A program made the position numbers and the translations under genes. A model generated the notes under the pieces. That model was not told where the DNA came from. It saw only the letters and a program-made list of their open reading frames with translations, and ran no database searches. From Lentibacter sp. XHP0401 (GTDB lineage: Bacteria; Pseudomonadota; Alphaproteobacteria; Rhodobacterales; Rhodobacteraceae), in assembly GCF_025751535.1 (NCBI RefSeq), contig NZ_JAOWLC010000001.1, positions 310,001 to 374,000 on the forward strand: a stretch of DNA of 64,000 nt, read 5' to 3'. This document shows positions 29,829-31,927 of this stretch, piece after piece. Each line of letters opens with the position of its first letter. Positions within the stretch are counted from its first letter, which is position 1.

Positions 29829-30242
<414 letters not shown>

Positions 30243-30272
30243 TTAAGGCGGGACATGCTTGCCACATTGATG

Positions 30273-30300
30273 TATGCCTATTTTTTAGTCGATAGGCATA
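30273..30300. promoter_or_regulatory. Perfect 9-bp inverted repeat upstream of glnB
   Basis: TATGCCTAT at 30273-30281 and ATAGGCATA at 30292-30300 are exact inverse copies with a 10-bp spacer. It lies about 106 bp upstream of glnB on one side and 36 bp upstream of the old epimerase start on the other. It may be an operator, or a weak hairpin with a T-run. It does not match the NtrC consensus (TGCACC-N5-GGTGCA). Confidence 0.4.
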
Positions 30301-30335
30301 AAATTATGGCAACCATGAATCGGAGGGTGCGATGC

Positions 30336-30566
30336 ATGACAGACATACTCACAGCGGCCCTGATACGAGCGAGAGAGCCGGCCGTGATTGAGTCGGGGCA
30401 GGGCACTGGTTTGGAGTAGATGGAGTGCGCAGGTGCAGAATAGGCCGATCGGCTTTGCCTGTATGGTATAATCATGACATATCATGCCTCTCAGCCAATT
30501 CACATCGTGCCGCATCTATCGGATGCTAAGTTGGACATCGTTGATACTGGACTTTAGGGGGCAAAG
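30336..30566 (+). pseudogene. Decayed remnant of NAD(P)HX epimerase (NnrE) domain
   Basis: This 77-codon stretch is in frame with the dehydratase that follows and looks like the two ends of a YjeF N-terminal epimerase domain with the middle missing. It starts with a well placed GGAGGG and ATG: MTDILTAALIRA, then ...IESGQGTGLE, stop, MECAGAE, stop. An intact domain commonly opens like MTxILTAxQMRAxE...SGxVTGLELMERAG. The right end, KLDIVDTGL then stop, matches the usual GKLVVKDIGL ending of the domain. A normal domain has about 210 residues, so roughly 130 have been lost, and three in-frame stops block translation. The identification rests on my reading of short segments. Confidence 0.7.
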
Positions 30567-31442
30567 ATGAGCCGAGCACCAAAGCAAATCAATCAAAGCG
30601 TAGTTCGCATGGCAGGATTGCGCAAAGATAAGGATCACAAATTCGATTATGGTCATGCGCTCCTTTTGTCAGGCGGAGCGGGGAAAACCGGCGCAGCGCG
30701 TCTTGCTGCAAGAGGTGCGTTGCGGATCGGCGCGGGGATAGTGACGCTTGGCGTGCCCGGATCGGCGCAGATGGAGGTGGCGTCGCATGTGACTTCGATT
30801 ATGCTGACGCGTGCTGGAACGGGTGAGGAGTTGTTGGGGGTTTTGCGAGATAAACGGATCAATGCGCTTTGCCTCGGGCCTGGGCTTGGGCTTGAACGGG
30901 CGCGCGAACTTGTGCCTTTAGCGCTTGGTTTCAAGCGGGCAACAGTGCTCGATGCAGATGCGTTGAGTGCCTTCAAGAGTGATCCGACTGAACTGTTTTG
31001 TATGCTACATGACAAGTGCGTTCTCACGCCTCACAGCGGAGAGTTTGAGCGGCTGTTTCCCGATATTGCGAAAAAATTGAGCCTCGTAACTGACGAGGGA
31101 TCTACCTGCTCAAAGGCTGATGCCGCGAGGGAGGCCGCGGCTCGTGCGGGTTGTGTTGTGCTATATAAAGGGGCTGACACTATTATCGCCGCACCGGACG
31201 GAGCGTGCAGCCTTAATGAGGCCCGTTGTGAACGAGCAGTTCCGTGGATGGCCACGGCGGGAGCAGGGGATGTGTTGGCAGGCTTTATCACAGGGCTACT
31301 CGCACGCGGGTTCAGCCCGATGCAAGCCGCAGAAACGGGGGCGTGGCTGCATGTGGAATGCGCACGTAGTTTTGGTGCCGGCCTTATCGCCGAGGACCTG
31401 CCCGAAGAACTACCACAAGTTTTCAAACAGTTGGGTTTTTAA
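30567..31442 (+). CDS. nnrD: ADP/ATP-dependent NAD(P)HX dehydratase (YjeF C-terminal domain only)
   Basis: A 291-residue ribokinase-fold enzyme that repairs hydrated NAD(P)H. It shows DYGHALLLSGGAGKTGAARL, ALCLGPGLGL, LDADALSAF, LTPHSGEFERLF and the nucleotide-binding WMATAGAGDVLAGF. In most relatives it is the second half of a bifunctional protein with the epimerase; here only the dehydratase is open. The new ATG at 30567 follows an in-frame stop by only four codons and has AGGGGG upstream, so translation can restart independently. The stop overlaps the convergent Hint gene by 4 bp. Confidence 0.92.
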   Translation: MSRAPKQINQSVVRMAGLRKDKDHKFDYGHALLLSGGAGKTGAARLAARGALRIGAGIVTLGVPGSAQMEVASHVTSIMLTRAGTGEELLGVLRDKRINALCLGPGLGLERARELVPLALGFKRATVLDADALSAFKSDPTELFCMLHDKCVLTPHSGEFERLFPDIAKKLSLVTDEGSTCSKADAAREAAARAGCVVLYKGADTIIAAPDGACSLNEARCERAVPWMATAGAGDVLAGFITGLLARGFSPMQAAETGAWLHVECARSFGAGLIAEDLPEELPQVFKQLGF

Positions 31443-31927
31443 GCTGCGGCTCGCAGTGCGCCCTGTGTGAGCTCGCAAGCCAACTCAAGCCCGTCTGCAT
31501 AAATGACATGTGTGGCGTCAAACACGAGTTGGAACAGTTTTGTGTTTTGAATGCCTGCGGTGCGGACAAACTCGCCATCAACTAGATCCTCGGCCGCGAC
31601 AAGAGCCTGCTTTTGCCCCGTTAATGCCACTGACCGCCAGTCTCGCAGTAGCAGTTTTTGCTCTGCGGCGATCTTTGTGTCTTCGTCGGGTTTGTTATGG
31701 CCGAGCGAGCCGCCCATAATCCAGACCATTGCGCATTCAACTTCAAAAACATGAATCTCTCGCAAAACGGCCATGCCAGTATCTCGCGTGATTACACGGT
31801 CTCCCACGCTGAGAAACTCGACTGGCAATTCGCCATCCAAAGTTAGTATTTTACTGCCAATCACAAAGCCGGAGTGTCTGGATAGACTCCGAGTCTGCGC
31901 AGAGTCTTCTGCTGAAAAGGGCTTCAT
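31439..31927 (-). CDS. Stand-alone Hint-domain protein, catalytic Cys position not conserved
   Basis: A 162-residue protein that is little more than a Hint (hedgehog/intein) domain: FVIGSKILTLDGELPVEFLSVGDRVITRD is its block A. Canonical Hint domains of this class open with CFxxGT; here the corresponding position reads GF, so the usual nucleophile is absent, although a Ser is adjacent (HSGF). Self-cleavage is therefore doubtful. No signal peptide or secretion repeat is attached. The role is unknown. The gene is single and convergent with nnrD. Confidence 0.75.
   Translation of the reverse strand: MKPFSAEDSAQTRSLSRHSGFVIGSKILTLDGELPVEFLSVGDRVITRDTGMAVLREIHVFEVECAMVWIMGGSLGHNKPDEDTKIAAEQKLLLRDWRSVALTGQKQALVAAEDLVDGEFVRTAGIQNTKLFQLVFDATHVIYADGLELACELTQGALRAAA

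Follow-up and report, generated by a model that had tools for sequence, protein, structure and literature searches.

Directly in front of nnrD, the NAD(P)H-hydrate dehydratase gene of Lentibacter sp. XHP0401, lie 77 codons (positions 30336-30566 of the window, the whole 64,000-nucleotide stretch analysed here) that share the frame of nnrD and are broken by stops. What are these codons, and what do they tell us about NAD(P)HX repair, the mending of damaged NAD(P)H, in this organism and its relatives? We find that they are what remains, in frame, of an NAD(P)HX epimerase domain (NnrE) of the kind fused to NnrD in relatives of the same genus. Our explanation, which we hold to be very probable, is a one-time bifunctional nnrE-nnrD gene whose epimerase half has decayed, in a family in which such decay has recurred separately. 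The features of the locus are collected in Table 1.

Table 1. Features of the nnrD locus, in window coordinates.
Feature	Position	Strand	Basis
glnB (PII), divergent neighbour, anchors the locus in relatives	29829-30167	-	ORF
GGAGGG, one-time ribosome-binding site of the fused nnrE-nnrD	30322-30327	+	direct reading
NAD(P)HX epimerase N-terminal remnant, codons 1-34	30336-30437	+	profile E 1.4e-8; tblastn E 1.3e-6
TAG stop 1, codon 28	30417-30419	+	
TAG stop 2, codon 36	30441-30443	+	
Probable epimerase C-terminal remnant (TYH...KLDIVDTGL)	about 30468-30554	+	weak collinear profile match, shuffle test
TAG stop 3, codon 74, immediately 5' of the dehydratase	30555-30557	+	
AGGGGG, likely ribosome-binding site for free-standing nnrD	30556-30561	+	direct reading
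nnrD, NAD(P)H-hydrate dehydratase, 291 aa, intact	30567-31442	+	PF01256, TIGR00196

The remnant and the intact fusions of the genus

Translated between glnB and nnrD, the 77 codons read MTDILTAALIRAREPAVIESGQGTGLE, TAG, MECAGAE, TAG, ADRLCLYGIIMTYHASQPIHIVPHLSDAKLDIVDTGL, TAG and GAK, after which comes the ATG of nnrD, nine bases past the third stop. The preliminary description of this locus had proposed the remnant of an epimerase domain that shares the nnrD frame, with a ribosome site and an ATG kept at its start and with an ATG and AGGGGG belonging to the dehydratase itself. Direct reading bears out both pairs of signals. To recognise the remnant we built an epimerase profile from 69 of 85 relatives (a start-motif filter excluded 16) and ran it on the six-frame window cut into 3,360 overlapping pieces. 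Codons 1-34 matched this profile at E 1.4e-8, while the best unrelated piece of the window reached E 1.2 and the sole further significant match was a piece overlapping codons 1-34. With the same place and the same frame, this match gives the remnant a shared descent with the PF03853 domain of the relatives. The fused gene of the same-genus genome G004, which starts with MTELLTAAQMRAIEQAAIESGEVTGLELMERAGHG and whose epimerase domain ends with ADLTVTFHALKIGHLLGGLWAYNRKVRVADIGL, agrees with the remnant at 22 of the first 34 residues. Across the five intact same-genus genes the agreement is 17-22 of 34, compared with 22-31 of 34 among those five.

The epimerase start is thus secure, and the claim that the final segment (KLDIVDTGL) also survives holds at lower strength. 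This C-terminal remnant can be traced from about 30468 (IIMTYHASQPIHIV...KLDIVDTGL), farther 5' than had been described. Alone it scores about 0 bits, collinear with profile positions 194-224, and over profile positions 180 and beyond its score is equalled in 9 of 2000 shuffles at the codon level and in 3 of 2000 at the base level. It lies in the right place, order and frame, and its significance is gone when position is left aside. We therefore regard it as a probable epimerase remnant, partly on position. In the weak profile alignment the remnant has Q at the likely position of the lysine conserved in the TFHxxKxGH stretch, a stretch that was also aligned between G004 and TM0922; this lysine would correspond to K192 of E. 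coli.

From the epimerase start to the dehydratase core we count 100 codons here, against 253, 257, 257, 258 and 266 in G006, G001, G002, G004 and G003, respectively. Measured on these five intact fusions, 153-166 codons are missing and not about 130 as first estimated, and the lost part takes in the GPGNNGGDG stretch of the relatives. The five fusions share with our locus its place, the dehydratase half, the first 34 codons and the probable last 29; they differ in being intact, whereas the present gene has lost these epimerase codons and carries three stops. The same dehydratase half is also found in the bifunctional YjeF fusion TM0922 (PDB 2ax3), whose host we take to be Thermotoga maritima.

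An intact NnrE-NnrD fusion stands at this locus in five of the six other same-genus genomes, and the sixth (G005) has a gap. Upstream of the dehydratase, all six have PII at 92-98% identity. On the other side of nnrD, and convergent with it, a small Hint_2 (PF13403) protein is encoded at 31439-31927 of the window (minus strand), with a homologue there in all six genomes.

The first 27 codons might instead be a translated leader peptide which couples or controls the translation of nnrD, and so a new small regulatory gene. The good GGAGGG and ATG that are kept, and the nnrD start only nine bases past the third stop, would fit such a role, but we consider it very unlikely: the same codons open a full epimerase in the intact relatives, residues common to these relatives are changed, as the agreement figures given above illustrate, and positions 30140-30700 have no Rfam match. 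Moreover, the corresponding gaps of G005, G123, G223, G048, G393 and G389, read in the three forward frames, showed no recognisable remnant. That the gene is really intact and was misassembled or misread is less probable again, even with a single assembly for the species, since it would require a deletion of about 460-500 bases together with several base changes creating stops, on a contig of 558 kb and between flanks collinear with the relatives. Scarcely credible, finally, is an unrelated short gene or a chance open frame resembling an epimerase start, a reading that could draw on the absence of Pfam and NCBIfam matches, up to E 10, to the 73 residues of the remnant, but that is opposed by the lineage-specific profile, by the correct start position, frame and neighbours, and by the fusion found here in all same-genus relatives other than the one with a gap.

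The surviving dehydratase and the rest of the genome

NnrD matches PF01256 over the full length of the domain (E 1.2e-46, 159.6 bits, cut-off 27) and TIGR00196 at 169 bits (cut-off 129.85). Its alignment keeps GAGDVLAG and TPHSGEF, and we take the GDVLAG and TPHxGE stretches to be active-site motifs. Compared with the same-genus genes its dN/dS is 0.08-0.12 in five computable comparisons, and in the remaining same-genus pairs it is 0.08-0.20, the top values involving the epimerase-less G005; these values are rough because dS is near saturation, and dS was not computable in two of the 21 pairs, one of them being our gene against that of G001. By these sequence measures the dehydratase domain is intact and under purifying selection. 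Free-standing dehydratases with their own start and no epimerase domain are known from structures (PDB 1kyh and 3rph). Compared with these, the free-standing state here is secondary, and traces of the former partner persist.

The preliminary description also raised the question of a second YjeF N-terminal domain elsewhere in the genome. The assembly (G000 in our numbering; 3.71 Mb in 28 contigs, listed as 100% complete) contains none over the cut-off, the best score in a profile search of the whole genome being 12.5 bits, and of 14 control genomes the same search was positive, over the cut-off, in 12. An epimerase that is not homologous to YjeF_N, or a YjeF_N domain that has diverged beyond the reach of the model, could still be present. 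A second dehydratase was considered as well, but the other PF01256 match in the genome belongs to a phosphomethylpyrimidine kinase (312 bits to PF08543).

We also considered whether the dehydratase carries a compensating change. The GPAYSK loop looks altered in all eight epimerase-less genomes when set against 85 epimerase-bearing rows, a comparison set biased towards near relatives. The loop is also variable in 16 mid-distance and 20 distant epimerase-bearing controls, and the idea was dropped.

Loss of the epimerase in the genus and the family

The epimerase is present in five of the seven same-genus genomes and absent in G000 and in G005, which has the same neighbours at the locus. A grouping of these two genomes is rejected with p-AU 1.5e-7 (rpoB, glnA and glnB DNA, data in which the base composition of G001 and G003 deviates from the model), and the pair is recovered in no tree. 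In a 92-row protein tree of glnA, glnB and nnrD G000 joins G006, in the rpoB DNA tree it adjoins G001 and the G002-G004 pair, and in the concatenated DNA tree its position among G001, G005, G006 and the G002-G004 pair is not settled.

To see the wider distribution we surveyed 394 genomes of the family, one per genus (G005 lies outside this set), accepting matches up to E 0.001 for the epimerase model and up to E 1e-5 for the dehydratase model. The epimerase model matches 333 genomes and the dehydratase model 340. When the tables are compared by eye, both genes are found in 327 genomes, a class that includes some partial or broken epimerases, the dehydratase without the epimerase in 13, the epimerase without the dehydratase in six and neither in 48. 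Seven of the 13 dehydratase-only genomes have a resolved locus (G000, G021, G048, G123, G223, G389 and G393), which besides our own genome makes six of 393 genus representatives; four others have weak dehydratase matches (G173, G266, G377 and G414) and two end in a contig end (G027 and G388). The latter two, as well as G236 and G444, were dropped from the dehydratase-only list for a contig end at or near the locus, and the partial or weaker epimerase matches of G287, G039, G220 and G141 were not counted as dehydratase-only.

In six of the seven resolved genomes (not G021), and also in G005, the dehydratase adjoins glnB. The distance from the glnB start to the dehydratase core is 284-468 bases in these seven (G000, G048, G123, G223, G389, G393 and G005), and in the intact G004 it is 944 bases. 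G005 (85% complete), G389 (79% complete) and G123, the latter two without a recognised rpoB, may hold an epimerase in missing sequence. The dehydratase of G021 (L066, 4517-5290) shares 45% identity with its G004 counterpart, lies in a stretch in which no glnB was read and is possibly a relocated or acquired copy.

In two further genomes the dehydratase is intact and the epimerase next to it is broken. In G238 (L061, 2260-4078) the epimerase is split by about 1.2 kb with two transposase-like open frames, presumably of the IS3 type. The epimerase of G340 has two frame changes, which could be sequencing errors. A resolved reverse case, with an intact epimerase and no dehydratase, was not found among the six epimerase-only genomes: G149 and G249 are at contig ends, G332 and G221 have an epimerase fragment beside glnB with no dehydratase found, and G177 and G257 have matches below the cut-off. 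Among named dehydratase records, the best 80 of 487, which come from near relatives, each show a match to the epimerase over 180 or more aligned residues, a statement about match length and not about intactness. That the same half is missing in several relatives suggests that the epimerase is the easier half to live without.

The losses are scattered both in the 92-row protein tree and in a 51-genome rpoB tree, a quick tree in which 15 of 48 branches are open; G123 and G389, without an rpoB match, are placed by the former only. On the rpoB tree the eight epimerase-defective rows among 36 dehydratase-bearing genomes need eight changes. Dehydratase presence needs 15 changes for the 15 rows without it (one of which, G249, is at a contig end), and over all 51 rows the state of the epimerase, intact or not, needs 17 changes for 23 rows. 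These counts depend on sampling and topology because the tree holds only 28 intact genomes, with two outgroups (G075 and G080) assumed to be intact from open frames of 507 and 519 aa.

The survey also showed two other arrangements. The 48 genus representatives with neither gene, about one in eight, include a number listed as 98-100% complete, and the known NAD(P)HX repair seems to be absent in them. In L025 (G026), L023 (G058), L026 (G067) and L033 (G025) the epimerase and the dehydratase lie in different frames or in separate neighbouring genes.

A proposed route of decay and the need for the epimerase

We suggest the following course of events. Most of the epimerase coding region would have been deleted, three stops would have built up in the remnant and the dehydratase half would have survived as a free-standing gene with its own start. 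Since the frame of the remnant is still kept, an in-frame deletion probably came first, with the fusion still read through, and the stops followed after the dehydratase had gained its start, with the caveat that chance alone would leave a third of random remnants in frame. The same decay would have taken place separately several times in this bacterial family.

That the epimerase was lost by deletion and nonsense mutation while the dehydratase was kept, as first proposed, agrees with the remnant, its stops and the five intact relatives. The accompanying claim that epimerisation was probably lost at this locus need not follow from this, because the NAD(P)HX epimers interconvert spontaneously with a half-life of about 40 min (PMC5938422). 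The predicted NnrD, as an enzyme that dehydrates (S)-NAD(P)HX with ADP or ATP, would still remove this epimer, and the R form would most likely reach it through spontaneous epimerisation, for which reason selection could keep the dehydratase and let the epimerase go. In the E. coli K192A mutant, whose epimerase is dead, total NADHX and NADPHX are not significantly raised and growth is normal (PMC5938422), probably owing to spontaneous interconversion of the epimers, although the authors leave open a residual or unknown epimerase activity. The R and cyclic forms could nevertheless accumulate in some cells, given that cyclic NADHX rises slightly in K192A and about 20-fold in epimerase-deficient human fibroblasts, and that the E. 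coli assays detected no spontaneous epimerisation on their time scale (PMC5938422). In humans NAD(P)HX epimerase deficiency is lethal (PMC5938422).

What the epimerase is needed for is under debate, given the spontaneous interconversion of the epimers and the normal growth and total NAD(P)HX of the E. coli mutant (PMC5938422). Dehydratase-only genomes and the dispensability of the epimerase are already known, and our genome adds an example of this known type, seen part-way through its decay. A survey of over 1,600 genomes lists 1,248 with both activities and 168 with the dehydratase alone, the latter resembling the present case; the part of that paper considered here (PMC5938422) gives counts, without the fossils or the repeated loss inside one family that are both seen here. 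We found no report of an epimerase fossil in mid-decay with repeated loss in one genus and family, and no paper on the hydrate epimerase in Rhodobacteraceae, in the literature searched, which was mostly non-subscription and for the former point gives weak evidence.

We lean towards the view that NAD(P)HX repair in this family decays in a preferred order, in which the epimerase goes first and many times independently, the dehydratase is held by selection and elsewhere the whole system is gone. If true, the family would be a natural knock-out set for asking what purpose the epimerase serves, and likewise the vitamin-B6 side role proposed for it. With repeated loss of the epimerase, a retained dehydratase and intact sister species, the need for this enzyme would become testable on natural material. 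As for the vitamin-B6 link, we looked for co-loss and found none: pdxJ (TIGR00559) and TIGR00044, which we take to be the YggS family, are present in all 24 genomes checked, with or without the epimerase, so that loss of the epimerase is not tied to losing these two vitamin-B6-related genes.
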